Notes under the pieces: model-generated
Database searches by the model: none
Told to the model about the DNA's origin: nothing
What the model saw: only the letters and a program-made list of their open reading frames with translations
Position numbers and translations under genes: made by a program
NCBI RefSeq assembly: GCF_012290005.1
Contig: NZ_JAAXMS010000012.1
Location: 62,001 to 126,000, forward strand
Origin: Crateriforma spongiae
Lineage (GTDB): Bacteria; Planctomycetota; Planctomycetia; Pirellulales; Pirellulaceae
Direction of reading: 5' to 3'
DNA length: 64,000 nucleotides
Shown here: piece by piece, positions 25,648 to 63,157 of the stretch
Layout: every line of letters begins with the position of its first letter
Position numbering within the stretch: the stretch's first letter is position 1

Positions 25648-27192
25648 ATGAGCCTCAATGATCATTTGAACGAAGCCAATCTGCCCCACTTGCCTTCCTC
25701 CATCGGGCGTCCAACCTACGACCGATCCTCCATCACCTCGGGCATCGTCCACATCGGAGTCGGCGGGTTCTTTCGCTCCCACTTGGCTTCCTATACCGAT
25801 GAACTGTTGAACTGCAAACTGTCGGATGGGGAACAACGGCAACAGGACAAATCAAGCCAGCAAGACACGTCATGCTGGGGCATCTGCGGGGTCGGCATCC
25901 GTGAAGACGATGCTCGCATGGCCGCAGCCATGGGGCCACAAGACTGTCTGTACTCGCTGATCGTCAAGCACCCGAATGGTTTGGTCGAAAGCTCCGTCAT
26001 CGGATCGATGATCGACTTTATTTTGGGAACCGATGATCCGTCGGTGGTAATTTCCAAGATGGCATCGCCCGAAACTCGAATCGTGTCTCTGACGATCACC
26101 GAAGGTGGATATAATTTGTCGCCAGCCACCGGCGATTTTGATTTTGACAATCCCGATGTGGTGCATGATCTGGAGCATCCCGACCAACCAAAATCCGTAT
26201 TCGGATACCTGACCGCCGCGTTGAAAATGCGACGCGATGCGGGGGCCGCCCCCGTGACGGTTTTGTCATGCGACAACATCCAGCACAACGGCGACTTGGC
26301 TCGGCGAATGCTGCTACGCTTTGCCCAGCGTCAGTCGCCCGAGTTGGCATCCTGGATCGAAGACCAAGTCACCTTCCCCAATTCAATGGTCGACCGGATC
26401 ACCCCGGTAACCTCCGAAGCCGATATCGAATACTTTCGCGTTCAATCCGGTCTAGTGGATCAATGGCCGGTCACCAGTGAACCGTTTCGACAATGGGTGA
26501 TCGAAGACCGCTTTGCCAACGGGCGTCCCGCGTGGGAACAAGTCGGCGCACAGTTTGTTCCCGACGTCTCTCCCTACGAAACGATGAAACTTCGTCTGCT
26601 GAACGCAGGTCACTCGGTGCTGGGGATTTTTGGCGCGCTACACGGCTATGAAACGATCAACGATTGCATTGCCGACGATCGTTTCGCGACTTACCTGCGA
26701 TCCTTCTTTGATCGGGAAGCAACCCCGACGCTCGATCCGGTTCCCGGGATCAATCTGGACGACTACAAAGATTCTCTGATCGAACGGTTTGGCAACCCGA
26801 GCATCCGTGACAGTGTCAGTCGGATCTGTCTGCAGAGTTCCAGTAAGTTGCCGGTCTTTTTGATCCCCACGATCACCGACAATCTGAAAGCGGGTCGTTC
26901 GATCCATCTTGCCACCCTGGTGATCGCCGCATGGTGCCTGTATTGCGACCGACAAGTCGACCAAAACGGTAAACCATTGGATATTGTCGACGACATGAAG
27001 GAACCGCTGCACCAAGCGGCGAAGAAAACCGCTGATGACAAGCGCGCCTTCATTCGATACACCCCAGTCTTTGGTGAACTTGCACAGAACGAAGACTTCG
27101 CCACCACCTACGAAACGCTTGTCGACGACGTTTATCGCAGTGGGAATGTCACGCAAAGCATGCAGCGTCTATTGGACGACACTGCCGATTAA
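25648..27192 (+). CDS. Mannitol dehydrogenase family oxidoreductase
   Basis: The 514-residue protein belongs to the long-chain polyol dehydrogenases (mannitol 2-dehydrogenase, fructuronate reductase, tagaturonate reductase). The NAD-binding N-terminus IVHIGVGGFFRSHLASYTDE and TITEGGYNLSP are present, as is the catalytic K-x4-N-x2-H signature (KLRLLNAGHSVLG: K314, N319, H322). It oxidises a sugar alcohol or reduces a ketose or ketouronate with NAD(H) in the cytoplasm. A 30-residue low-complexity Gln/Ser/Asp insert lies near residues 58-73. It is four bases downstream of the NCS1-like gene; its stop codon overlaps the stop of the convergent DUF4832 gene (27189-27192). Confidence 0.93.
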   Translation: MSLNDHLNEANLPHLPSSIGRPTYDRSSITSGIVHIGVGGFFRSHLASYTDELLNCKLSDGEQRQQDKSSQQDTSCWGICGVGIREDDARMAAAMGPQDCLYSLIVKHPNGLVESSVIGSMIDFILGTDDPSVVISKMASPETRIVSLTITEGGYNLSPATGDFDFDNPDVVHDLEHPDQPKSVFGYLTAALKMRRDAGAAPVTVLSCDNIQHNGDLARRMLLRFAQRQSPELASWIEDQVTFPNSMVDRITPVTSEADIEYFRVQSGLVDQWPVTSEPFRQWVIEDRFANGRPAWEQVGAQFVPDVSPYETMKLRLLNAGHSVLGIFGALHGYETINDCIADDRFATYLRSFFDREATPTLDPVPGINLDDYKDSLIERFGNPSIRDSVSRICLQSSSKLPVFLIPTITDNLKAGRSIHLATLVIAAWCLYCDRQVDQNGKPLDIVDDMKEPLHQAAKKTADDKRAFIRYTPVFGELAQNEDFATTYETLVDDVYRSGNVTQSMQRLLDDTAD

Positions 27193-29770: not shown

Positions 29771-30085
29771 CCGCTTGTCCTTGCTGAACTTAGTTTCCAG
29801 CTCGTTCCTCACAAGCCTAAACAATCGTCAAAATCGGCGAGACGTTTGCTTCATTGCTCAGCTTGATCGGAAGCCAGGCATGAAACACGCGTTTGTCTTA
29901 GCATGATCGGCACAATCGGAAACATTTCACGATGCCATTGGCCACGCTGACGCGTGCGTCAGCCAGTGGTCGTCAAGCAGCTTTGCGGCACCCCGTCGGC
30001 GGGACAGCTATATTGGCATCACCACCCGCCCGACGATGCGATCGTCGATCCTTCCTTGTCCTCCTACCCAGCGCAGGTTCTTTCG
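29771..30085. other. Divergent upstream region of the beta-barrel and the DUF1080 fusion genes
   Basis: The 315 bases hold the promoters of two divergent genes. The frame of the plus-strand gene is open through part of it but has no coding features before the signal peptide at 30086. No operator was recognised. Confidence 0.4.
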
Positions 30086-33000
30086 ATGGTCTCATTCGAT
30101 CTTTCTGGTGCGCACGCCGCTGCCATGACTGCCTTACTGGTCGTCGCACCGATGGCCGCCGCAGACGAGCCGAGTGACACGGAACCGTTCCATTCATTGT
30201 TCGATGGCCAAACCTTGGACGGATGGGAAGGCGACGGTCGGTTTTGGCGAGTCGAAGATGGTGCGATCGTTGGCCAGACAACGACTGAAGTCGCCGCGGA
30301 ACAAAACACATTTTTGATTTATCGTGGCGGTTCCTTCAGTGACTTTGAACTGCGGTTGTCGTATCAAGTCCAGGGATACAATTCCGGCGTCCAATATCGC
30401 AGTGTCGACGAAGGCGACTATGTGGTGTCGGGCTACCAGTGTGATTTCGAAGCCCAATGGCATCCGGTCAAAGGAAAGCCCGGTGCCGCCCCGGTCGATC
30501 AGTTCACCGGGATGTTCTTCGAAGAAAAAGGCCGAATGTTTTTGGGGCAACGCGGCGACGCCGTGATCGTTCGCGAAAACAAGGACAACGCCAAGAAGCC
30601 GCATATCGAAAAGATCGGCTCGGTGGGCGATCCGGTGGAATTGGAAACCCACATTCGCCGTGACGACTGGAACGAACTGATCGTCATCGCCAACGGCAAC
30701 CAGTTCACGCACATCATCAATGGCCAAGTGATGGCGATTGGGATCGACGAAGACGCCGCCAACCGCCGCGATTCGGGACTGTTCGCTTTCCAGTTGCACA
30801 AAGGGCCGCCGATGATGATTCGCGTCAAAGACATCCGCGTCCGTCGGCTGAACGAAGCCGGCCAGAACACCAACAATGCCGACGACGAATCCGCCGCCAA
30901 CCACAATGATGGTGCAAAAGTTGACCTGGATGCGTTGGAACAATTCGCACTGACGCATGCCGGAAACGCCGCAAAGGGCAAGCAAATCTTTTTGGATGCC
31001 AGGACGAAATGCTCGGTCTGTCATACGATTGATGGACGCGGTGGCCAAGTCGGCGTGGATCTGTCGCGAATCGGTGGCAAATTCGATCGGCCGCATTTGA
31101 TTGAATCGGTGTTGGAACCGTCGCGACAAATCGTCGAAGGTTATCGAACGAGTAACGTGCTGACCGTTGACGGACGCGTGATCAGCGGGATCATGATGCG
31201 GCAATCCGATGAAGCATTAACGTTGATCGATGCCAACGCAAAGACACACTTCATTGCGAAAGATGATGTCGAGGAAATCAGCCATAGCATCGCGTCGATC
31301 ATGCCCGAAGGTTTGGCGGACGAACTAACGCCGGACGAATTCACCGACTTGATCGCCTATCTGGAAAGCTTGCGATCGGGAGTGAAGACCAAAATGGGCT
31401 CGGGGGTTGCCGGTCCGATCAGCGTTCCGGACGGCTTCACTGTTGAAACGATCGCCACGGGGATCGATGGTGCCACCGCGCTGGACGTGCTTCCCGATGG
31501 TCGCGTTTTGGTGTGCGAACAAACCGGACAAATCCGTGTCATCGACGACGGCAAACTGATGCCCGAACCGCTGGCCACCTTTCCCGTGGATTCGACATGG
31601 GAACGTGGCGTGATCGGCGTAACGCACGCACCGAGTTTCCCCAAAGAACCCTACATCTACGTTTGCTGGGTGGCCAAAGATCCCTATCCGCACCACCGAA
31701 TCAGTCGTCTGACCGTCGACGCAAACGCCACAATTGCCAACAGTGAAACCGTGCTGCTGATCGGCGATGACCAAACGAAAATGGGTGGCAAAGTCCCCGC
31801 GGGTCATCAAGGCGGTGGAATCCACTTCGGAAAGGACGGCAAGCTTTACATCGGCATCGGAGAACAAACCGCCGGCACGCCGTCGCAAGAGCTGGATACG
31901 TTTCTGGGCAAGATCCTGCGAATCAATCCCGACGGATCCATCCCCGACGACAACCCATTGCTTGATCGCACTGCTGGAAAGTACCAAGCGATCTGGGCAC
32001 TTGGGTGCCGCAATCCGTTCACTTTCGCGGTGCGTGATTCCGACGGATTGATGCTGATCAACGATGTCGGCGGCAAGTCCGAAGAAATCAACGTCGGCCG
32101 TGCGGGCGCCAACTATGGTTGGCCGGTCGTCGAACACGGTGATTTTCCCGAGTACGACGACGCCCAATACGACGGTCCGATCCATTGGTACCCGCAATCA
32201 TCCGTCAACGGTGGTGACTTTTGTCCTTCCGATTCGGCGTGGCCGACCTCATGGCAGGGACGCTACTTCTTTGCCGATTTCGTCCATGGCTGGATCCACA
32301 CATTGGATCCCGATCATCCGGCAGACGTGAACACGTTTATCGAGGGCATCCGGCGTCCCGTCGATCTGCGTTTTTCGAATGACGGATCTCTGTACGTTCT
32401 GCTTCGTAACGCTTGGGTGATCGACGACAAGTTCCAGGGCGGAACAGGATCGCTGTTGCGCGTGCGACCGACGTCAGCGGCATCCAAGCAGAAGGTCGTG
32501 TTGACCACCGGCGACCGGCCCAGACCAACCGGCGTCCACGTCATCGAGGATGCGGTGGATGCATCCGCCGGAGACCTACCCGCGTTCAAGATCCAGACGC
32601 CAACGGCAACCTACTACCTGGAGAAATCGGGCGGAGGACTTAGCAGTTTGGTCGACAACGACGGCAATGATTGGCTGGGCTTTCACCCCGGCAAGGGCAG
32701 TGGTGCGGCCGGCGAATACCGCGGCTTTCCCAACGCGGTGTTCCATCAAGGCGGCAACTATTTCCACGCGAGAAATTCGCAAAGCGATCCGATGCAAACA
32801 CGACTCGTACATGCCGGTCCAGACTATGCAGCAGTCACCACAGAGTCTTTGGACGGCCGGTGGCAAGGACGCTATGAGTTCTATCCCACCCACTGCACCT
32901 TTTCGATCACGCGGATGCCCAACGACAAGCACTATTGGATCTTGTATGAAGGCACGCCCGGCGGCCGGTTAGATCCTGATGATTGGTGGATGACCTCGTC

Positions 33001-34579
33001 GACGCCTGCCCCCAAACCCATTGACCAAAAGCACGACGGCGATCTTGATGCGCCGGAATGGATCGCGTTTGGGGATGCCAGTCACCGGCAATGCATCGTT
33101 CTGCACAGCCATGATGACGACCGCTGGCACGATTCGTTCTATGCCATGGATGACCAAATGACCGTGTTTGGTTTCGGACGCCAGAAATTGAACGCCTACC
33201 TGAACACACCTGGACGACGCTTTTCGATCGGGTTGGCCGATGGCAAGGCTCCGAGGGATGTAAGCCGACTGGTCGATTCCATGCAGCAGTCGAAGTCGTC
33301 AGATCACCCTACCGACTCCACCGCACCGAACGATTCCGCGGCAGCCGAAAACGTGATCGCGGCCGTCCAACAACCAGGGCCGAAACCCGGCGATGTCTAT
33401 CGTGAATACGCGATTCACAATGGTGGCAATTTCGACTGGCGAGTGACCGACCCGAATGCTTCGGCCGAAGGTGCGAAGAAGTTTCTGCCAAATCCCGTTT
33501 TGATGCTTGCAGTAAAAGACTTGGAACATGCCATCGCCGCCGAAGTCGTTTTGGATCGTTGGGGCGGTCACGCCGGAACAACGGACAAGCGGATTCGGTT
33601 CAACGGGAACACTTGGATTCGATTGCCGGAACTGTCGACCACGCCCAAGGGTCATTCGCCGGAAATGTATCATTCGCAAGACAATCCCGTCGTTACCCTT
33701 CCGCTGGATCATTTGGTTCAAGGGGAAAACCGTGTCGAGGCAACGGTGGGTCCGAGCAATCAGAATCATTGGGGCCAGTGGGGTCTTTATTCGCTGATCC
33801 TGCGTGTCTACTACGATCCGGCTGCGAAGTCACATGCCACTGGACGGATTGCTTCACCCGCCACGGGATCAATCATTTCGGATGATCCGCTAATCAGAGT
33901 CGACGCAACGAAGGACGCCGAACGAGTGGACGTCTTGGCTTGGTATGACGGCTATGACGAAAACGGCGATGGAATCTACCAAGACTGGCACGTGTCGCGT
34001 TTCCAGCCTTGGCGTGGCCAGGCCGCGGATCTGCAAAATCATGTGGGCACCATCGATCCGTCGATCGGACAACACGAACTGCGATGGGACACGCATTGGG
34101 TCCCCGACCAAACGCCGGAATCCATCAAGCTGGTGGCTCGCATCCATGATGACGACGGAACAATTTTCGTCACCGACGTCGTTGATGGACTGACCCTAAG
34201 TCGTGAATCGGTTTCGGTGCGTCAGTATCGCGCCAGTGATGTTCCGGAATCCTTCAGCGTGCGTGTCGGAAAAGAAAAGTCGTGTCGAATTTCTATCGAT
34301 CCGACGGCGCCGATCGAACGTGCGGAAGAAGCCGTGTTGCACTACCGCACTTGGGAAGCCTCTGACGCGCACCACGAGCCACTGCGTCTGAATGGTCATC
34401 CCCACCGCCACGAAGGTAAGAATCATCATTACGACTATGACCTATTGCCGATCCCCGTGGGGCAACTTCGTCGCGGGGACAATCGCTTCACCATTCGGTC
34501 CGAAACACAGCATCACATGGTGGAAGTTCTATGGCCCGGGCCGGCGATCACCGTTCGGTACGCCGCACCGTTACAATAG
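30086..34579 (+). CDS. Giant secreted DUF1080 / cytochrome c / PQQ-type sugar dehydrogenase fusion
   Basis: About 1,497 residues, exported (signal AAAMTALLVVAPMAAADEP). In order: a 3-keto-disaccharide hydrolase (DUF1080) domain (about 35-240; SLFDGQTLDGWEG, GYQCDFEAQWHP); a PVC-type cytochrome c with heme site CSVCH near residue 309; a glucose/sorbosone dehydrogenase-like beta-propeller (about 445-800; VPAGHQGGGIHFGKDGKLYI, WALGCRNPFTFAV, EEINVGRAGANYGWP); a galactose-mutarotase-like beta region (about 815-1,060; YYLEKSGGGLSSLVDNDGND); and C-terminal beta-sandwich domains (LILRVYYDP; HRHEGKNHHYDYDLLPI). It could oxidise a glycoside via PQQ, pass electrons to the attached heme and hydrolyse the keto product. 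It heads a four-gene locus with DUF6786, an agarase-like hydrolase and an epimerase-like barrel. Confidence 0.88.
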   Translation: MVSFDLSGAHAAAMTALLVVAPMAAADEPSDTEPFHSLFDGQTLDGWEGDGRFWRVEDGAIVGQTTTEVAAEQNTFLIYRGGSFSDFELRLSYQVQGYNSGVQYRSVDEGDYVVSGYQCDFEAQWHPVKGKPGAAPVDQFTGMFFEEKGRMFLGQRGDAVIVRENKDNAKKPHIEKIGSVGDPVELETHIRRDDWNELIVIANGNQFTHIINGQVMAIGIDEDAANRRDSGLFAFQLHKGPPMMIRVKDIRVRRLNEAGQNTNNADDESAANHNDGAKVDLDALEQFALTHAGNAAKGKQIFLDARTKCSVCHTIDGRGGQVGVDLSRIGGKFDRPHLIESVLEPSRQIVEGYRTSNVLTVDGRVISGIMMRQSDEALTLIDANAKTHFIAKDDVEEISHSIASIMPEGLADELTPDEFTDLIAYLESLRSGVKTKMGSGVAGPISVPDGFTVETIATGIDGATALDVLPDGRVLVCEQTGQIRVIDDGKLMPEPLATFPVDSTWERGVIGVTHAPSFPKEPYIYVCWVAKDPYPHHRISRLTVDANATIANSETVLLIGDDQTKMGGKVPAGHQGGGIHFGKDGKLYIGIGEQTAGTPSQELDTFLGKILRINPDGSIPDDNPLLDRTAGKYQAIWALGCRNPFTFAVRDSDGLMLINDVGGKSEEINVGRAGANYGWPVVEHGDFPEYDDAQYDGPIHWYPQSSVNGGDFCPSDSAWPTSWQGRYFFADFVHGWIHTLDPDHPADVNTFIEGIRRPVDLRFSNDGSLYVLLRNAWVIDDKFQGGTGSLLRVRPTSAASKQKVVLTTGDRPRPTGVHVIEDAVDASAGDLPAFKIQTPTATYYLEKSGGGLSSLVDNDGNDWLGFHPGKGSGAAGEYRGFPNAVFHQGGNYFHARNSQSDPMQTRLVHAGPDYAAVTTESLDGRWQGRYEFYPTHCTFSITRMPNDKHYWILYEGTPGGRLDPDDWWMTSSTPAPKPIDQKHDGDLDAPEWIAFGDASHRQCIVLHSHDDDRWHDSFYAMDDQMTVFGFGRQKLNAYLNTPGRRFSIGLADGKAPRDVSRLVDSMQQSKSSDHPTDSTAPNDSAAAENVIAAVQQPGPKPGDVYREYAIHNGGNFDWRVTDPNASAEGAKKFLPNPVLMLAVKDLEHAIAAEVVLDRWGGHAGTTDKRIRFNGNTWIRLPELSTTPKGHSPEMYHSQDNPVVTLPLDHLVQGENRVEATVGPSNQNHWGQWGLYSLILRVYYDPAAKSHATGRIASPATGSIISDDPLIRVDATKDAERVDVLAWYDGYDENGDGIYQDWHVSRFQPWRGQAADLQNHVGTIDPSIGQHELRWDTHWVPDQTPESIKLVARIHDDDGTIFVTDVVDGLTLSRESVSVRQYRASDVPESFSVRVGKEKSCRISIDPTAPIERAEEAVLHYRTWEASDAHHEPLRLNGHPHRHEGKNHHYDYDLLPIPVGQLRRGDNRFTIRSETQHHMVEVLWPGPAITVRYAAPLQ

Positions 34580-34706
34580 CGAACGGATCAAGCAGCATTG
34601 ATTCTGCTAGGCGACCGCGATCGACACGTACGAACGCGACAGACATCACGGTTGCCGGATCGACCCTCCATCCAAACTCGGCATCGTCCGTCAAAAGAGC
34701 AACTTG

Positions 34707-35942
34707 ATGAATTGGTCTCTTGTATTTTTTTCCACCGCGTTTCTTGCGTCGCTGGCGTGTCTGTTCAGTTTTCCTGTCGGTGCAGCACAACCCTCCGCCG
34801 AACCCGGAACCTTCGGCCACGACGTCGATTTTCTTCGCAAGCACGGTGACGTCATTGTCTTGAAAGGCGATTCCGATTCCAGCCAAATCGCCGTGGTCGC
34901 CGACTATCAGGGCCGGGTGATGACCAGCACAGCCAACGGTGAAGCGGGGACCAGTTTCGGATGGCTGAATCACGACCTGATCGCTTCGGGCGAAACGCGT
35001 CCCCACATCAACGTGTTCGGCGGCGAAGACCGTTTCTGGATGGGCCCGGAAGGCGGTCAGTTTTCAATCTTTTTCAAAGGCGGCGATGAATTCACTTTGG
35101 AAAACTGGCAGACGCCGGCGGCGATCGATACCGAACCGTTTTCGGTCGTGTCCAAGGATCAATCCAGCGTTTCGTTTCAGCGGAAAATCAGCCTGACAAA
35201 CTACAGCGGTTTTCCGTTTGATCTTCAAGTCGATCGCGACATTTCGGTGCTGTCGTCCGAACAAATGGAATCGGCACTGAACGTCCAACTTGGTGACGCA
35301 GTCAAATCGGTCGGCTTTCAATCCGACAACCGAATCACCAACATCGGATCACATGCTTGGCACAAAGATACCGGTCTGTTGTCGATCTGGATTTTGGGCA
35401 TGTTCAACCCATCGGACCAAGCAACCATCATCGTCCCGTACAAAAAGCCTTTGACGCTGAACAGTGACTACTTCGGCGACGTTCCAGCCGATCGATTGGT
35501 GACAACGGAAGCCGCCGTTCTGTTCAAAGGCGACGGACGATTCCGATCGAAAATTGGATTGCCGCCCGAATCGATCGTTCCGGTGTGCGGCAGCTACGAC
35601 GCCCAGCAACAAGTCCTAACGATCGTCCAGTACTCGTTTGCTGGTGATCGTGACTATGTAAATTCTCAGTGGAAGATTCAAGACAATCCGTACGGTGGCG
35701 ATGTTGTCAATTCGTACAACGACGGTCCGGTCGATGACGGTACCCAGCTGGGCCCTTTTTACGAATTGGAATCATCATCGCCCGCAAAACCACTGGCACC
35801 CGGTGAAAGCATTCAACATGTCCACAAAACCTTCCATATCGAAGGCGAATACCAGGATCTGAATCGAATCGCCAAGACGGTTTTAGGCGTCGACCTGGAT
35901 GACACAACCATCCTTTCGCAAACGCAGCCGACGAAGCAATGA
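34707..35942 (+). CDS. Secreted DUF6786 protein (mutarotase-like fold)
   Basis: A 411-residue exported protein (signal LVFFSTAFLASLACLFSFPV then GAAQPSAEPG). The body is beta-rich with the DUF6786 pattern (VVADYQGRVMTSTANGEAG, SFGWLNHDLIASGE, INVFGGEDRFWMGPEGGQFS), resembling a galactose-mutarotase-like sandwich that binds sugars; no enzymatic residues can be assigned. The start is the ATG at 34707; a TTG lies just before it. Its stop overlaps the start of the agarase-like gene by four bases (ATGA), so the two are translationally coupled. Confidence 0.8.
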   Translation: MNWSLVFFSTAFLASLACLFSFPVGAAQPSAEPGTFGHDVDFLRKHGDVIVLKGDSDSSQIAVVADYQGRVMTSTANGEAGTSFGWLNHDLIASGETRPHINVFGGEDRFWMGPEGGQFSIFFKGGDEFTLENWQTPAAIDTEPFSVVSKDQSSVSFQRKISLTNYSGFPFDLQVDRDISVLSSEQMESALNVQLGDAVKSVGFQSDNRITNIGSHAWHKDTGLLSIWILGMFNPSDQATIIVPYKKPLTLNSDYFGDVPADRLVTTEAAVLFKGDGRFRSKIGLPPESIVPVCGSYDAQQQVLTIVQYSFAGDRDYVNSQWKIQDNPYGGDVVNSYNDGPVDDGTQLGPFYELESSSPAKPLAPGESIQHVHKTFHIEGEYQDLNRIAKTVLGVDLDDTTILSQTQPTKQ

Positions 35943-37198
35943 CCGCCAACCGCACGGTTGAATCGAAAGGAAATGACCGCGACACGACGAGCGGTCGAAG
36001 GGACACGACAAAGAGCCGATTGGCCAAACGACGTTGTTTCATCAAACAATTGATTGCCGCCGGCGCCGGGTTGACGATCAACGCCACGGCCCGGTCTGTC
36101 AGTGCCGCACCTGTCAAAACGACTCAACCGGCCCCCGACGGTTTCTTTACGCTGGGAAGACAAGACGATCACTGGTGGCTGATCTCACCCGACGGCCAGC
36201 CGTTCTTTACGGTGGGGATCAATCACATCGACCCGGCGACGCTGCGGTACCCGGAAAACATCGATCTGTGGCGTGACAAGTACGGCGGCAGCACGATTCG
36301 TTGGATCCAAGAATCCGTGACACCCAACTTGCATGACTGGGGGTTCAATTCGGTCGGCTGGGTCCAAGAAGTGACCGTTCGGAAATGGCAACATTCACGC
36401 AGCTTTACCATCGATGAATACCGGGCACTGGACATGCCCTATTGTCATTTGCTGCCGTTCACCGAATCACATCAATGGGAAAAGCACACCGTCCACTATG
36501 ATTTCCGCAGCGATGACTGGAAAGATTGGTGTGACTATGTGGCACGTGCTCATTGCGGCGAACTTGCCGAGGAACGCAACCTGATCGGATACTTCTATAG
36601 TGATTGTCCGACATGGATTCACAGCCGACCAGACAATCAATGGCGCGGGCCCATCTTTGATCCCGATCGTCTGGAATCCGAGGCCGGCCGCAAAGAACTG
36701 ATCGAGTTGGCGACCCTTTATTACGAAACCACTCACGATGCGATTCGACGTTATGACAAGCATCACCTGATCTTCGGCGACCGATACGAAGCCAACGCGC
36801 CGATCGCCAAGCAAGTCATCGACGCCGCGCTTCCGTACGTCGACGTGCTATCGTTTCAGGACTTTCGTGATCCGGTCACCCACCTGCCGGAATATCATCG
36901 ACAGACGGGCAAGCCGGTGCTTTTGGCGGACGCGGCCCGCATGCGATGGCAGACGGCACCAGGCGAATTCACCCATAACGAAGGTGAGTGGTACGCGGCC
37001 ACACTGCAACAGCTGTTTCAAACCCCAGGCTGTATCGGATTCCATCTGTGCGGTGCCTATCAACGCAATCGCGCCCGACGCTATGGCCTGTTGGATGAGC
37101 AAGAGATTCCCGATTCCGAGAACGTGCCACTGATCCGCCAAGCCAATCATCGCATCACGCAGCAGATGAATCAGCGATTCCCGCAAGTGCAACAGTGA
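35939..37198 (+). CDS. Tat-exported agarase-like clan-A glycoside hydrolase
   Basis: The 419 residues begin with a twin-arginine signal (KRRCFIKQLIAAGAGL) and continue as an alpha/beta-barrel hydrolase of the beta-agarase-like type: GRQDDHWWLISPDGQPFFTV, GINHIDPATLRYPEN, NLHDWGFNSVGWVQE, IGYFYSDCPTWIHS, HLIFGDRYEANAPI and VLSFQDFRDPVT. The Glu/Asp at the ends of barrel strands would be the catalytic pair, but the exact residues cannot be fixed by eye. Substrate unknown; the neighbours suggest a marine polysaccharide or its oligosaccharides. It overlaps DUF6786 by four bases and is followed by the epimerase-like gene after 32 bases. Confidence 0.78.
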   Translation: MTANRTVESKGNDRDTTSGRRDTTKSRLAKRRCFIKQLIAAGAGLTINATARSVSAAPVKTTQPAPDGFFTLGRQDDHWWLISPDGQPFFTVGINHIDPATLRYPENIDLWRDKYGGSTIRWIQESVTPNLHDWGFNSVGWVQEVTVRKWQHSRSFTIDEYRALDMPYCHLLPFTESHQWEKHTVHYDFRSDDWKDWCDYVARAHCGELAEERNLIGYFYSDCPTWIHSRPDNQWRGPIFDPDRLESEAGRKELIELATLYYETTHDAIRRYDKHHLIFGDRYEANAPIAKQVIDAALPYVDVLSFQDFRDPVTHLPEYHRQTGKPVLLADAARMRWQTAPGEFTHNEGEWYAATLQQLFQTPGCIGFHLCGAYQRNRARRYGLLDEQEIPDSENVPLIRQANHRITQQMNQRFPQVQQ

Positions 37199-37230
37199 TT
37201 CCCCCCCATCATTCCACCAGGACATCATCG

Positions 37231-38181
37231 ATGAACCACCAACGACGCCGTTTTCTTACTTCCTCCGCCGGTTTCCTTGCGGCAAGTGCGCTGACCAAGT
37301 CCGTGCTTGCCCAGCCGTCAGGGCAACGTCGTTTTACCGTGGATTTGCGTTGGGGCAGCATTGGCGTCAAAGCCAGCCAGCGGGAAGCGATCATATTGGC
37401 CGCCAAGCATGGATTCGAATCCGTGGCGGCGTCGCCGGCAGAGTTGGCCAAGTTGTCCGATAGCGAAAACCAGGACTTGCTGGGCGAACTGGCCGACGCC
37501 GGATTGGTCTGGGGTTCCAGCGGCTTGCCACTGGACTTTCGCAAGGACGAGGCGCGTTTCCAGGAAGGATTGCGTCAGTTGCCAACGCTCGCGGCCGCCG
37601 CGAAACGAGCAGGTGTGACGCGAATGGGGACTTGGATCACTCCCGGCAGCGACGAATTGACTTACGTCGCCAATTTCCGCCAGCACGCCCAACGCCTTCG
37701 CCAGTGCGCCAAAGTGTTGCAAGACCACGGTCTTCGGTTTGGCTTGGAATATGTGGGCACACCATCCTTGCGAAATTCCAAACGCTATCCGTTTATCCAT
37801 ACCATGCGTGAAACGGCTGATTTGCATGCCGAAATCGGCGTCAACAACATGGGATTTGTCTTGGATTCGTGGCACTGGTACACCGCTCGCGAAACCGCGG
37901 ACGACATTCGTGCATTGGATTCAAAACAAGTGGTCGGGTGCGATCTGAATGACGCGCCGGCGGGGCTGGACATCGACCAGCAACAAGACAACCAGCGGGA
38001 ATTGCCGATGGCCACGGGCGTCATCGATGTTCAATCCTTTTTGGAAGCTTTGGTCGACATCGGGTACGACGGTCCCGTTCGCGCTGAACCGTTCAACAAG
38101 CCGCTGAATCAATTGGACAATGACGCGGCATGCGCCAAGACGTCTGCAGCGATCCACCAGGCGTTTGCCTTGCTGGATTGA
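37231..38181 (+). CDS. Tat-exported sugar phosphate isomerase/epimerase-like TIM barrel (AP endonuclease 2 family)
   Basis: A 316-residue protein with a Tat signal (QRRRFLTSSAGFLAASALTK) and the xylose-isomerase-like barrel: LGLEYVGT-type metal site (GLEYVGTPS), VLDSWHWYTA, VVGCDLNDAPAG and GPVRAEPFNK provide the Glu, Asp, His and Glu ligands expected of this fold. Recently described relatives act on 3-keto-glycosides (elimination and hydration), which fits an operon with a DUF1080 and sugar-dehydrogenase fusion. The start at ATG 37231 gives the Tat motif directly; the frame is open 12 codons upstream. It ends the locus. Confidence 0.85.
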   Translation: MNHQRRRFLTSSAGFLAASALTKSVLAQPSGQRRFTVDLRWGSIGVKASQREAIILAAKHGFESVAASPAELAKLSDSENQDLLGELADAGLVWGSSGLPLDFRKDEARFQEGLRQLPTLAAAAKRAGVTRMGTWITPGSDELTYVANFRQHAQRLRQCAKVLQDHGLRFGLEYVGTPSLRNSKRYPFIHTMRETADLHAEIGVNNMGFVLDSWHWYTARETADDIRALDSKQVVGCDLNDAPAGLDIDQQQDNQRELPMATGVIDVQSFLEALVDIGYDGPVRAEPFNKPLNQLDNDAACAKTSAAIHQAFALLD

Positions 38182-38523: not shown

Positions 38524-39384
38524 ATGAAGATCCAAGACTTTCGCAAACGTCAGCAAATGCATTCTCTGGAAGGTTTGATTGACACCCCGCTGCAAATCGC
38601 GGCGACCGATGTCGGCGACGGGGACGCAGTGGTGTTGCTGCATGGCATACCGACTTGGTCGTTTTTGTTTCACGAGGTCATTGATCCGCTGGCCGAGCAT
38701 TTTCGTGTTGTTGCCCCCGACATGGCGGGCTATGGCTATTCCGACCGTCGGGATCGTTTTGATCGTTCGATCGAGTTTCAAGCGGACGTGATCGAAAGCC
38801 TCCTTGATGAAATGGGCGTTGATCGGGCGCACTTCGTTGCCCATGACATCGGCGGTGGCGTTGCTCTGATCCTGGCAGATCGTCGTCCCGAATTGGTGCG
38901 TTCGATGGTGCTGTCCAACAGTGTTGCCTATGACAGTTGGCCGGTGGACGAAATGCTGGCTCTAGGACACCCGCGTAACGCACAATTGAGCCGTGAAGAG
39001 ATGACCGACAAACTGGTCGAGAGTTTCCAATTTGGGCTTTCAAGAAAAGAACGATTGACCGACGAGTTCAAGGAGGGAATCATCGCGCCTTACCAAGAAC
39101 CTGAAGGAATCGTCAGCCTAGTACGTAACGCGGCAAGTTTGAACACCAACCACACGACACCCCTAACGCATCGCCTGCACAAGATGCAGCAGTCGACGCT
39201 TTTGCTGTGGGGTGAAGACGATCGCTGGCAACCTATCGACACTGCCGAGCGTTTGGTCAAAGACCTGCCCAACGCGGAACTTCACCCGATGCGGAATTGT
39301 TCGCACTGGACACCGCAAGACAATCCGGACGAATTCGTCAGTGAAACACTGCGATTCTTGCAAGCGACCCCCGTCGCGGTCTGA
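38524..39384 (+). CDS. Alpha/beta hydrolase, haloalkane-dehalogenase or epoxide-hydrolase type
   Basis: A 286-residue single-domain hydrolase. The oxyanion region LLHGIPTWSFLFHE, the nucleophile elbow AHDIGGGVAL with Asp (not Ser) as nucleophile, the acid in LLWGEDDRWQP and the histidine in RNCSHWTPQDNP make a complete Asp-Asp-His triad as in haloacetate and haloalkane dehalogenases and epoxide hydrolases. Which reaction applies is not decidable without the halide-binding Trp pattern (Trp follows the HG-IP motif; a second is not obvious). The start was set at ATG 38524 (MKIQDFRKRQQ). Cytoplasmic, monocistronic. Confidence 0.88.
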   Translation: MKIQDFRKRQQMHSLEGLIDTPLQIAATDVGDGDAVVLLHGIPTWSFLFHEVIDPLAEHFRVVAPDMAGYGYSDRRDRFDRSIEFQADVIESLLDEMGVDRAHFVAHDIGGGVALILADRRPELVRSMVLSNSVAYDSWPVDEMLALGHPRNAQLSREEMTDKLVESFQFGLSRKERLTDEFKEGIIAPYQEPEGIVSLVRNAASLNTNHTTPLTHRLHKMQQSTLLLWGEDDRWQPIDTAERLVKDLPNAELHPMRNCSHWTPQDNPDEFVSETLRFLQATPVAV

Positions 39385-51118: not shown

Positions 51119-53047
51119 ATGCAACGACACTTACAGCTCTTGACACTTTTCGTTGCGATCTGCGTCCTGAACCCGGCTTATGGACAGCCACTTGACTGGG
51201 AGGATCTTGACCGAGGCTTGGTAGCAATTCAGACCGATCAAGGCGTTTTTCTCAGTTGGCGTTTGCTTTTCGATGACGCCTCTGACGTTGCATTCGATTT
51301 GTGGCGTGGGGTCGGCACCGACAAAGTGAAGAAACTGAATGACCAACCGCTGCGTGGGTCGACCCACTTTCTGGACGCAGCACCTCCTGCATCGGGAAAG
51401 GTCACCTACGGCATCACCCGCACGAGCGCACCTGGGGGAATCACAGAACCGCAAGCCAAAAACCAAGTATCCATCGATCTTGACCATGCGCCGTTCGGCT
51501 ACCTGGAAATCCCGACGGAGATTCCATCTGGCTATCACGCCAACGACGCGTCGGCCGGCGACCTCGATGGTGACGGCCGTTATGAGTTGGTGGTTCACGT
51601 CGCCGGTCGCGGCCATGACAACTCTCGCGGTGGAATGACCGACCCACCATTGTTTCATGCGTACACCTTGGATGGTCAAAGATTGTGGCAGATCAATCTT
51701 GGCAAAAACGTCCGCGAGGGCGCACATTACAATCCGTTTCTAGTGTTTGATTTTGATGGGGACGGTCACGCTGAATTCGTTTGTCGAACAAGTGATGGAA
51801 CGGTGGATGGGCGTGGGCAGGCGATCGGTGACCCATCAGCTGATTGGCGAGTGCCATTGCCGGTCGCTTTGCGTGACGGCGAAGGTTCGACACACCGACG
51901 TCGCCTGCCGGGAGACGTGGGCAAGATCCTCTCGGGTCCTGAATACATGACCGTTTTTGATGGACGCACCGGCGCTGCATTGGATACAGTGACCTATCTT
52001 CCCCAACGTGCTCCCGACAACGACAACCCATCACGGGAACTGCAACAGCAGATTTGGGGCGATGACTATGGCAATCGAATGGATCGCTTTCTTGCGGCGG
52101 TCGCATTCTTGGATGGCAAACACCCGAGCATCGTGATGTCCCGGGGCTACTACACAAGAACAGTCATCGCCGCTTGGGATTTTCGCGACGGTCAAATTCA
52201 GAAACGCTGGCTGTTCGACAGCGACGAAGTCAATTTCGATGGCCACCGCAATCCTTGGGCGCGACAGGGGAACCACAGCATTTCGGTAGCCGATGTCGAC
52301 AACGACGGACGCGACGAGATCGTGTTTGGATCGATGGTGGTCGACGACGATGGCACGGGGCTTTACTCAACGAATCTCGGTCACGGAGATGCTCAGCACA
52401 CAGGAGACCTTGATCCACGGAGACCTGGCCTTGAGACTTGGAGCATTCACGAAAGCAATCGCCCCGAACCAGACTTTATCGGGTCCGAGTTGAGAGATGC
52501 CGAAACCGGCCGAATTCTTTTCGTTGGACGACGCGGTCGTGATGTGGCCAGAGGTATGGCAGCGGATATTGACCCACGTTATCCCGGCGCAGAACTGTGG
52601 GATGGGTCTCGAGATCTTTGGACGGCCAATGGCAAAGTGATCGGGCCAGCGCCACGGTCGACCAACATGGCCATCTGGTGGGACGGAGACAGGCTACGGG
52701 AACTGCTGGATGGAGTTCGAATCGAAAAGTGGGATCATTTGGCCCACGAGCAGAGACTCCTGTTCGACGGACCGCGGGCTGGCGTCGTCGCGAACAACGG
52801 TTCGAAGAACAATCCCTGCTTGGCCGCCGATCTGATCGGTGACTGGCGGGAAGAGTTGGTCGCCCGTTCCGCAGACAATCAAGCCCTGCGAATCTACGTT
52901 TCAACCATCCCAACACAGCACCGCCAGGTCACTTTGATGCAAGACCGTCAGTATCGACTCGGCGTCGCTTGGCAGAACGTTGGATACAATCAGCCGCCAC
53001 ACACGCGTGACTTCATCGGCGCGGTCGATCATTCGAAGCCCAAATGA
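51119..53047 (+). CDS. Rhamnogalacturonan endolyase, polysaccharide lyase family 11
   Basis: A 642-residue exported enzyme (signal LQLLTLFVAICVLNPAYG). It has the PL11 beta-propeller signature: EDLDRGLVAIQTDQGVFLSW at the start, ASAGDLDGDGRYELVV, FDFDGDGHAEFVCRTSDGTV, DVDNDGRDEIVFGSMVVDD, and ADIDPRYPGAELWD. The calcium-binding DxDxDG loops repeat between residues ~140 and ~480 as expected for this lyase, which cleaves the rhamnogalacturonan I backbone by beta-elimination. Gene order FAD oxidoreductase, PL11, Tat lipoprotein suggests a pectin-type operon. Confidence 0.93.
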   Translation: MQRHLQLLTLFVAICVLNPAYGQPLDWEDLDRGLVAIQTDQGVFLSWRLLFDDASDVAFDLWRGVGTDKVKKLNDQPLRGSTHFLDAAPPASGKVTYGITRTSAPGGITEPQAKNQVSIDLDHAPFGYLEIPTEIPSGYHANDASAGDLDGDGRYELVVHVAGRGHDNSRGGMTDPPLFHAYTLDGQRLWQINLGKNVREGAHYNPFLVFDFDGDGHAEFVCRTSDGTVDGRGQAIGDPSADWRVPLPVALRDGEGSTHRRRLPGDVGKILSGPEYMTVFDGRTGAALDTVTYLPQRAPDNDNPSRELQQQIWGDDYGNRMDRFLAAVAFLDGKHPSIVMSRGYYTRTVIAAWDFRDGQIQKRWLFDSDEVNFDGHRNPWARQGNHSISVADVDNDGRDEIVFGSMVVDDDGTGLYSTNLGHGDAQHTGDLDPRRPGLETWSIHESNRPEPDFIGSELRDAETGRILFVGRRGRDVARGMAADIDPRYPGAELWDGSRDLWTANGKVIGPAPRSTNMAIWWDGDRLRELLDGVRIEKWDHLAHEQRLLFDGPRAGVVANNGSKNNPCLAADLIGDWREELVARSADNQALRIYVSTIPTQHRQVTLMQDRQYRLGVAWQNVGYNQPPHTRDFIGAVDHSKPK

Positions 53048-61625: not shown

Positions 61626-62237
61626 ATGGACCGGTGGATACAAGACTTCCTGGAACAGTTCGGAGCGATCGGTGTCGGCGTGCTGATGTTGGTGGAAAAC
61701 ATCCTTCCGCCGATTCCATCGGAGATCGTCATGCCTTGGGCGGGTTACTCTGTCAGCCAAGGCGACAATCCTTTTTGGGGCGTGCTGGTGGCTGGTAGTC
61801 TGGGCTCCTTCGCCGGTGCAATGTTTTGGTACTACCTTGCACGCTGGATCGGCAGACAGCGACTTGCGAATTGGGTTGCCGGTCATGGTGCCTGGTTGAC
61901 GATCACGCCGGAGGATCTGGACCGAGTTGATGCGTGGTTCGATCGCTGGGGAGCGTGGGCGGTCTTCGGATGTCGTATGGTGCCTGGCTTGCGGACTCTG
62001 ATCAGCGTGCCGGCCGGTTTCTCGGACATGCCGCCCGGAAAGTTTTCACTTTACACCGCCATCGGCGTGACCGCCTGGACCGCATTGCTGGCGGGCGTCG
62101 GCTGGTACCTGGGAGAAAACTATGCTGATCTGGCGGGACCTTTGGGATGGATCAGTACGCTGGTGATGGTCGTCTTGATCGCTTGGTGGTTGCTTCGGTT
62201 GGCAAAGCAGAACGCCGCGAGAAGGGAAGCATCATGA
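61626..62237 (+). CDS. DedA-family membrane protein
   Basis: A 203-residue inner-membrane protein. The N-terminal ENILPPIPSEIVMPWAGYSV and the G-x-x-x-x-x-x-x-W-Y-x-x-R pattern (GSFAGAMFWYYLARWIGRQR), then AVFGCRMVPGLRTLISVPAG, and the C-terminal GVTAWTALLAGVGWYLGENY are the hallmarks of DedA, which flips or recycles lipid carriers. The start ATG at 61626 is four bases after the NTF2-like stop. Its stop overlaps the subunit II gene by four bases (ATGA), an unusual coupling of DedA with a cytochrome oxidase. Confidence 0.93.
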   Translation: MDRWIQDFLEQFGAIGVGVLMLVENILPPIPSEIVMPWAGYSVSQGDNPFWGVLVAGSLGSFAGAMFWYYLARWIGRQRLANWVAGHGAWLTITPEDLDRVDAWFDRWGAWAVFGCRMVPGLRTLISVPAGFSDMPPGKFSLYTAIGVTAWTALLAGVGWYLGENYADLAGPLGWISTLVMVVLIAWWLLRLAKQNAARREAS

Positions 62238-63157
62238 ACGATCGCCCCTCTCAATCCGCGCTTGACCCGGCTGGTAGCGGTGCCGAGTCGATCGCTGAGC
62301 TTTTTTGGGTCATGGTCGCCGGCGGAGTCGGTATCTGGTTACTGGTCATCGGCTTGGCGGTGTACTCGATCATCCGCCCTGGCGAGCACAACGCCAGAAT
62401 GACTCGATTGATGGTGATCGGCGGCGGTGCTGTGTTTCCGACGATCGTGCTAACAGGGTTGCTAACGTACGGACTTTCAATCTTGCCGGAGTTGCAGCGA
62501 CCCGCTCCCGAGGGCAGCCAAGTCGTCGAAGTGGTTGGCGTCAGATGGTGGTGGCGAGTGCGTTATCGGCTCGAAGATGGTTCAACGATCGAGACGGCGA
62601 ACGAAATTCACCTGCCTGTCGATGAAGAAGTCGAATTCAAATTGACCAGCGAAGACGTGATCCATTCATTTTGGATTCCGGCACTTGGCGGGAAGACTGA
62701 CATGATTCCGGGGCGTGAAAACCGTTTGAAGCTATACCCGACGAAGCAAGGTGTTTACCGCGGCGTGTGCGCGGAATTTTGCGGTGCGGCTCACGCACAG
62801 ATGTCGTTCGACGTCGTGGTGCAGTCGAGGGAGGAATTCGACAGTTGGCTGGCAGAATTTCGCTTGCCAGGCACCGATCAAGATCATCCCGGCAAGGTCG
62901 TCTTTCGTCGCCGTGGATGTTCTGCATGTCACACGATCCGCGGAACTGATGATGACGGAATGGTCGGGCCGGATTTGACCCATTTTGGATCGCGACGAAC
63001 GATCGGTGCTGGGGTGATGAAGAATACGGCGGAGAACCTGGGCCGTTGGATCACCGCGACGCACGCGGTCAAACCCGGCGTTGAGATGCCGACGTTTGAT
63101 TCGATCGACGACGACGAACTCGATGCGTTGGTCGAGTATCTGGGGGAGCTTCGATGA
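62234..63157 (+). CDS. ctaC: Cytochrome c oxidase subunit II with fused cytochrome c (caa3 type)
   Basis: A 307-residue protein with two N-terminal helices (LFWVMVAGGVGIWLLVIGLA, GGAVFPTIVLTGLLTYGLSI), the aromatic electron-entry segment VVGVRWWWRVRY, the CuA site near residue 180 (VCAEFCGAAHAQM, with C-x3-C, H and M), and a C-terminal cytochrome c domain with heme site CSACH near residue 235 and the distal Met in GVEMPTFD. This lets it take electrons from soluble donors directly into the oxidase. It overlaps the DedA gene and the short frame before subunit I. Confidence 0.95.
   Translation: MNDRPSQSALDPAGSGAESIAELFWVMVAGGVGIWLLVIGLAVYSIIRPGEHNARMTRLMVIGGGAVFPTIVLTGLLTYGLSILPELQRPAPEGSQVVEVVGVRWWWRVRYRLEDGSTIETANEIHLPVDEEVEFKLTSEDVIHSFWIPALGGKTDMIPGRENRLKLYPTKQGVYRGVCAEFCGAAHAQMSFDVVVQSREEFDSWLAEFRLPGTDQDHPGKVVFRRRGCSACHTIRGTDDDGMVGPDLTHFGSRRTIGAGVMKNTAENLGRWITATHAVKPGVEMPTFDSIDDDELDALVEYLGELR

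Follow-up and report, generated by a model that had tools for sequence, protein, structure and literature searches.

The window examined here, a 64,000-nucleotide stretch of the planctomycete Crateriforma spongiae (contig NZ_JAAXMS010000012.1), contains a gene whose predicted product of 1,497 amino acids (aa) joins a domain of the 3-keto-disaccharide hydrolase family DUF1080, a c-type heme domain and a GSDH propeller with an unclassified domain, here called X, and an arm at the C-terminus. The question raised by this locus is whether the parts of this fusion protein serve a common function and in which order they would act. The pattern of linkage described below suggests that DUF1080, oxidation by the propeller and electron transfer by the heme belong together, while the choice between splitting a glycoside before oxidation and oxidising it before splitting is a close call.

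The fusion protein and its split and permuted counterparts

The reading frame that stops at position 34579 is open from a GTG codon at 29954. The ATG at 30086 is the likelier start, because indels distinguish the window (genome G000) from its congener (genome G001) upstream of this position, whereas no gaps are found across the 1,497 codons of the coding part. The DUF1080, heme and GSDH domains all score above the cut-offs of their models (Table 1), and the fusion noted in a preliminary description of this DNA is real. The heme domain is also matched by Cytochrom_C (residues 295–429, 36.1 bits, cut-off 21.3), and it contains a CxxCH motif at residues 309–313 and a candidate axial Met at residue 406, within the sequence SIMP. 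With TIGR03606, a PQQ-dependent dehydrogenase subfamily of the glucose/sorbosone family (PQQ, pyrroloquinoline quinone), the propeller scored 81.3 bits, which is under the curated cut-off of 434.55, and a weak NCBIfam match to ScyE spans residues 735–817. Pfam and NCBIfam place nothing in residues 820–1497; the borders of domain X and of the arm were drawn from relatives that carry them separately. A scan for promoters and terminators gave no more candidates than were found in shuffled sequences.

The congener genome, which is a single contig, carries the whole fusion, with parts that are 91–95% identical and with the set and order of neighbouring genes unchanged. This copy excludes an assembly or annotation artefact, and decay of the heme or propeller domain, the other outcome considered in the preliminary description, is ruled out by their kept motifs (see below) and by low ratios of nonsynonymous to synonymous substitution (dN/dS). 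These ratios, calculated by the Nei-Gojobori method between the window and the congener only, were 0.157 for the whole protein, 0.103 for DUF1080, 0.064 for the heme domain, 0.114 for the propeller, 0.234 for domain X and 0.08, 0.264 and 0.10 for the three arm modules. Every domain of the fusion is under purifying selection, which is comparatively strong in the heme and propeller. The ratios for the leader (0.375), the stretch 774–830 (0.247) and the linkers at residues 258–292 (0.466) and 1057–1095 (0.714) complete a pattern that fits the domain borders drawn.

Split versions of this protein are present in genomes G251 and G195, which belong to one genus of another family in the same class. 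In both, frames for the arm (427 and 473 aa, respectively), an alpha/beta-hydrolase, a DUF1080 protein (282 and 261 aa) and a heme-propeller-X protein (826 and 827 aa) are arranged on one strand, with a gap of 77 bases from the DUF1080 to the heme-propeller-X frame, or of 86 when counted to the first Met. The alpha/beta-hydrolase was assigned to Abhydrolase_3 in a Pfam scan of G251 only. A permuted version occurs in a third genus (G364), where a DUF1080 frame ends 37 bases before a fusion frame of 1,651 aa (locus L050, 6650–11602) with the domain order Beta-lactamase-family (esterase-like), arm, X, heme and propeller, in its own right an uncommon architecture. The best NCBIfam match of its Beta-lactamase-family domain was the methyl acetate hydrolase AcmB, below the cut-off of that model. 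The DUF1080 proteins adjoining the heme-propeller gene in these three genomes are 56–65% identical to the DUF1080 domain of the fusion.

The trio of DUF1080, heme and propeller is thus fused in one genus (G000 and G001), encoded by neighbouring genes in a second, and present as a gene beside a permuted fusion in the third. Matches to PF06439 are numerous, 23–44 in each of the seven genomes carrying heme-propeller-X genes, in frames of many lengths, and 32–44 in each of G251, G195 and G364. With uniform placement, the chance that the directly upstream gene is a DUF1080 gene on the same strand is about 0.002–0.003 per genome, and about 0.003 for each of G251, G195 and G364. Apart from the genus with the fusion, four genera possess heme-propeller-X genes, and DUF1080 adjoins them in two; this linkage can hardly be ascribed to chance. 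The fusion is a "Rosetta stone": because its parts are encoded by neighbouring genes in some relatives, DUF1080, heme and propeller very probably serve one job. Of the linkage looked for on the basis of the preliminary description, that among these three functions was seen in other genera, whereas that with the three downstream genes was limited to the congener.

Table 1. Positions in the window of the fusion gene, its domains and the genes that follow it
Feature	Residues	Positions	Strand	Basis
Fusion gene (DUF1080 / c-heme / GSDH propeller / domain X / C-terminal arm)	1–1497	30086..34579	+	Open reading frame calling, Pfam and NCBIfam, intact congener copy
3-keto-disaccharide hydrolase domain (PF06439, DUF1080)	35–253	30188..30844	+	109.2 bits, curated cut-off 26.8
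c-type heme domain (TIGR02603)	293–428	30962..31369	+	103.3 bits, cut-off 68.15
GSDH six-bladed propeller (PF07995)	465–773	31478..32404	+	174.7 bits, curated cut-off 25
Unclassified domain X	about 817–1052	32534..33241	+	Delimited by relatives
C-terminal arm (beta, Ig-like and jelly-roll-like modules)	about 1099–1491	33380..34558	+	Stand-alone relatives, AlphaFold2 model
DUF6786 protein		34704–35942 (alternative ATG 34707)	+	Pfam, 547 bits; congener neighbour 94% identical
GH50-agarase-like protein (gene 3), exported-type leader		35939–37198	+	phmmer, E 3.7e-5 to 4bq4
AP_endonuc_2, xylose-isomerase-like TIM barrel (gene 4)		37195–38181 (Met 37231)	+	Pfam

Heme, propeller and comparison with known systems

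The search yielded seven heme-propeller genes with domain X, including that of the window, and all were aligned (alignment A3). The CxxCH motif and the candidate axial Met, in the form SxMP, are kept in all of them. The heme domain is homologous to the protein in PDB entry 7zs0, named "Hypothetical (Diheme) protein" (E 1.6e-24), and the matching Met position is Cys in the variant 7zs1 and His in 7zs2, which look designed to probe the axial ligand. The propeller profile matches 2ism, 2g8s, 3a9g and 1c9u (E down to 1e-36), and also chains of the Hedgehog-interacting protein (E 1e-11). In a HMMER alignment to 5min, His574, Arg642 and Asn643 of the fusion align with His144, Arg228 and Asn229 of soluble glucose dehydrogenase (sGDH), in a numbering that partly follows passages of PMC6881789. 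The GHQGG stretch, containing the equivalent of His144, the RNP stretch, containing those of Arg228 and Asn229, and a further stretch, NYGWP, are likewise kept in 7/7 genes.

In its build, the fusion is closest to CcPDH, the pyranose dehydrogenase of Coprinopsis cinerea (AA8 cytochrome b, AA12 propeller, CBM1), with which it shares the order, within one chain, of heme domain, six-bladed propeller and C-terminal module (carbohydrate-binding in CcPDH, putatively so in the fusion) and would share PQQ as cofactor and the transfer of electrons from it to heme (passages of PMC4332668 and PMC6881789). The first of these sources provides the precedent for propeller-to-heme electron transfer, and it states that C-1 "may" be the oxidation site, other sites not being excluded (PMC4332668). 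Unlike CcPDH, which is fungal and lacks DUF1080 and domain X, the fusion has a c-type heme (CxxCH) and not the b-type of AA8. The bacterial soluble aldose sugar dehydrogenases (2ism, 2g8s, 3a9g) and sGDH (1c9u) possess a homologous propeller with the catalytic His and Arg; however, their chains of about 350–450 aa leave no room for heme, DUF1080 or arm, and the fusion does not have the equivalent of Arg408 of sGDH. The same heme family is also found in heme proteins of the Planctomycetes-Verrucomicrobia-Chlamydiae (PVC) type, consisting of a TIGR02603 heme, a DUF7133/TIGR02604 propeller and HEAT repeats (e.g. L066, 3712–7167), whereas in the fusion the heme precedes a GSDH propeller and no TIGR02604 match was listed.

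The lactose 3-dehydrogenase LacABC of Caulobacter is a flavoprotein complex with a GMC flavoprotein subunit; no GMC match was present in the eight proteins scanned, viz. the fusion and seven neighbours. In its logic, the fusion is closest to LacABC acting with the proposed 3'-ketolactose hydrolase CCNA_01705, a DUF1080 protein, where periplasmic sugar oxidation is similarly tied to DUF1080 (passages of PMC9007349), although these are separate proteins and the dehydrogenase is not a GSDH propeller. Each of the catalytic domains of the fusion is known; the joining of a quinohemoprotein-type chain with DUF1080 is new. The architecture, its shuffled counterparts, domain X and the arm were found undescribed in the literature, judging by titles, the starts of abstracts and passages, with subscription literature mostly outside this search.

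Order of the reactions and rival explanations

With less than even confidence, we tentatively favour a reading in which the fusion is an exported single-chain redox glycosidase that splits its substrate before oxidising it. The arm, and possibly also domain X, would hold a glycan or glycoside, and the DUF1080 domain would cleave a 3-keto-glycoside supplied by another enzyme. The propeller, with scavenged PQQ, would then act on the reducing sugar set free and oxidise its C1, giving a lactone. Electrons would move from PQQ to the neighbouring c-heme and onwards to an acceptor in the periplasm that belongs to the respiratory chain. Export of the protein is suggested by the c-heme motif and by the leaders of its relatives.

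The preference for this order rests on the C1 oxidation ascribed to the propeller family, on a gene of C3-oxidoreductase type in G039, and on serine hydrolases, near or in the system, that could open lactones. For characterised members of the GSDH propeller fold, the site of action is understood to be C1 of free sugars. The heme-propeller-X gene of G039 has its first Met 74 bases after the end of a GFO_IDH_MocA gene, whose product has a twin-arginine-like leader and whose family includes oxidisers of glycosides at C3. The serine hydrolases occur in three lineages and belong to three families, namely Abhydrolase_3 (G251), the Beta-lactamase-family domain (G364) and Abhydrolase_1 (at 38536 of the window); a role as lactonases would fit C1 oxidation. 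Separately, a COX2 gene with a C-terminal cytochrome c domain is located about 24–28 kb away (62147–63157, + strand); its product is a possible terminal acceptor of electrons from the periplasm, although its presence proves nothing.

A number of observations weigh against splitting followed by oxidation. The fusion's leader has no K or R ahead of its hydrophobic stretch and is a poor signal peptide. DUF1080 is absent from the fetched flanks of two carriers of heme-propeller-X genes, G039 (12 kb) and G123 (10.6 kb; this contig stops just after the heme-propeller-X gene), and the linkage of serine hydrolases and GFO_IDH_MocA was observed without a background control. The equivalent of Arg408, which passages of PMC6881789 give as the second PQQ-binding Arg of sGDH, is Val in 7/7 genes (RRPVD, placed through 2g8s); CcPDH uses a different Arg at this location. 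Additionally, pqqC (TIGR02111) was detected in none of the seven carrier genomes and in none of the 14 control genomes of the same search. The search itself works, since the model scored above its cut-off in 8/119 genomes of another phylum (that of L028). As far as pqqC shows, the host is not a producer of the PQQ invoked in the preliminary description, and the cofactor would therefore need scavenging. This alters the PQQ idea and does not rule it out, because E. coli also depends on PQQ from outside (PMC6881789, passages). Lastly, an endo-xanthanase/lichenase is listed among DUF1080 proteins in PMC9007349, so that cleavage without a keto-sugar is conceivable, and the LacABC-DUF1080 pathway of Caulobacter is presented there as proposed to run in the opposite order.

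That opposite order leads to a rival which is only a little less likely than the favoured reading: the propeller would oxidise an intact glycoside at C3, the heme would take the electrons, and DUF1080 would cleave the resulting 3-keto-glycoside, making the fusion a one-chain counterpart of LacABC and its DUF1080 partner, with a quinoprotein replacing the flavoprotein. We know of no characterised member of this propeller fold that oxidises C3 of a glycoside, and the lack of pqqC in the carriers counts against this scheme as well. The passages of PMC4332668 favour C-1, without proof. The rival order is favoured by the linkage of the trio and by the pathway proposed for Caulobacter (passages of PMC9007349); it requires no extra enzyme and accounts for the joining of dehydrogenase, cytochrome and DUF1080. 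A fuller version of it, in which the protein is a self-contained electron-yielding glycosidase where the quinoprotein oxidises the intact glycoside, DUF1080 cleaves it, the c-heme takes the electrons, and domain X and the arm form a glycan-handling core, appears less likely still. Of the similar scheme in the preliminary description (oxidation of a glycoside to a keto form, splitting and passage of electrons to respiration), one shared process is supported by the split and permuted versions, its order is only one of two, and for the passage of electrons "without carriers" there is no evidence.

Two further rivals deprive one of the domains of its presumed activity. If DUF1080 were a mere concanavalin-like sugar-binding module or a keto-independent glycosidase, the protein would be an aldose dehydrogenase that uses PQQ and carries, in addition to the c-heme, domains for handling glycans. 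The high number of PF06439 matches per carrier, in frames of so many lengths, agrees with this idea, as do the endo-xanthanase/lichenase listed in PMC9007349 and the overlap of DUF1080 and CBM66 models on one stretch in passages of PMC5673643; however, DUF1080 is a gene of its own beside the heme-propeller gene in two genera, its dN/dS in the fusion is low (0.103), and BT2157, a characterised 3-ketotrehalose hydrolase of this family, is cited in PMC9007349, and we regard this explanation as clearly unlikely. The propeller could instead be non-enzymatic, binding sugar or protein without PQQ, with some other redox role for the heme. The Hedgehog-interacting protein is a related propeller with a binding function, and its match to the profile, the replaced Arg408 equivalent and the missing pqqC are in accordance with such a role. 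Nevertheless, the equivalents of His144, Arg228 and Asn229 as well as NYGWP are kept in every one of the seven genes, and the reliance of E. coli on outside PQQ (PMC6881789, passages) removes part of the difficulty; we regard a propeller devoid of catalysis as quite improbable.

Downstream genes, domain X and the C-terminal arm

The three genes following the fusion encode, as previously noted, DUF6786, agarase-like and epimerase-like proteins, although the likeness of the second to GH50 is weak and it has no Pfam match. The first two of these genes overlap by four bases. The agarase-like and epimerase-like genes also overlap by four bases if the latter starts with GTG; Met 37231 gives a better twin-arginine-like leader, and leaders of this type were recognised by eye in both gene 3 and gene 4. 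In gene 3, the motifs PVLxAD and GYFYxD have Asp where the catalytic Glu pair of GH50 is expected, in all six close rows (the window, G001, G251, G195, G107 and G128); the first site lies in the HMMER-aligned stretch and the second was placed by eye. Because of these Asp residues, hydrolase activity of the gene 3 product is uncertain. The best alignment of gene 4 is to 3u0h and has, by eye, an Asp in place of a His of 3u0h which we take to be a metal ligand in this fold.

Gene 3 was matched in 18/199 sampled genomes, its own included, and four of the others matched at 62–76% identity. The 20–34 kb around the four close gene-3 relatives from other genera (56–75% identical) showed no match to DUF6786, the epimerase or the fusion. 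A conserved four-gene operon was not found beyond the congener, and a function of the three downstream genes together with the fusion may be suggested at the level of the genus. On contig C1 of G251, 12 kb from the gene-3 relative, a 1,720-aa protein (L114, 2436–7595, − strand) combines a heme domain like that of the fusion with an agarase-like stretch. Elsewhere in the window, a rhamnogalacturonan lyase family 11 gene (51119–53047, + strand; RGL11_C, 637 bits) is preceded by a gene for a FAD-dependent oxidoreductase, and a member of the mannitol dehydrogenase family (25648–27192, + strand) is nearest to the fructuronate reductase and D-arabinitol dehydrogenase models, below their cut-offs.

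Neither domain X nor the arm, both of which are conserved, has its own Pfam family. When the second half of the fusion was searched against 60 genomes, a whole match was seen only in the window's genome and its congener, with partial matches in G039, G024 and G010. Among 392 evenly sampled genomes of the window's phylum, the arm was present in four and domain X in seven (own genome included), and a combined X-arm query matched 3/297 and 5/288 genomes of the phyla of L028 and L029, respectively, the genomes of these two loci included. Both domains also occur, in other settings, in metagenome-assembled genomes (MAGs) of Acidobacteriota and Verrucomicrobiota; in the Luteitalea MAG of L028 they are stand-alone genes 5.5 kb apart.

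For domain X, no Pfam family matched more than one of 15 members (best E 0.05), and its profile gave no PDB match up to E 10. Its 15 aligned rows (A1, excluding the broken pieces of L031) share 22 invariant columns, with Arg, Glu and Asp residues among them; an AlphaFold2 (AF2) model from two sequences had a pLDDT of 41 and no usable fold. Besides its stand-alone form in L028, it is found inside PQQ_2 proteins, near the end of that at L067 (9905–13192) and at residues 502–727 of the 883 at L077 (5198–7846); domain X thus travels with two kinds of propeller.

The "several beta domains" of the preliminary description are a fair account of the arm, whose AF2 model (mean pLDDT 63.7) consists almost wholly of beta structure. 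Its Ig-like module matches 9kvu (Z 9.0 over 87 residues), and its last module is jelly-roll-like, resembling a GH86 module (Z 12.3 over 113 residues) and BcsB (Z 10.2 over 114); Foldseek TM-scores were low, 0.21 at best among the top rows by query length, and the best sequence match in the PDB had an E of 0.36. Big_7 was matched in 7 of 11 aligned members (A2, which leaves out the arm of L045, whose frame is broken, and the fragments found in L083), with no match for the window's own copy. By its fold, the arm may be one that holds glycans. Stand-alone arm frames of 427–473 aa are present at L028, L048 and L049. FG-GAP repeats precede the arm in L083, where the final portion of the arm lies in a different frame, and FG-GAP genes adjoin it in L028 and L030. 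At these loci (L028, 8491–11305; L030, 9920–13338; L083, 5710–8904), the nearby FG-GAP repeats have weak matches to the propeller of aldos-2-ulose dehydratase (AUDH). The keto-sugar families AP_endonuc_2, GFO_IDH_MocA, ThuA and FG-GAP near the arm in L028, L030, L031 and L083 are a lead only, with no comparison to random loci behind it.

The function of "Planctomycete-specific" cytochrome-domain proteins of a related phylum is described as wholly unexplained in a passage of PMC5615132. The shuffled fusion indicates which parts work together, namely DUF1080, the c-heme and the GSDH propeller, and it points to two conserved domains that lack a Pfam family. It also provides a concrete protein for asking whether such bacteria draw respiratory electrons from the breakdown of glycosides.

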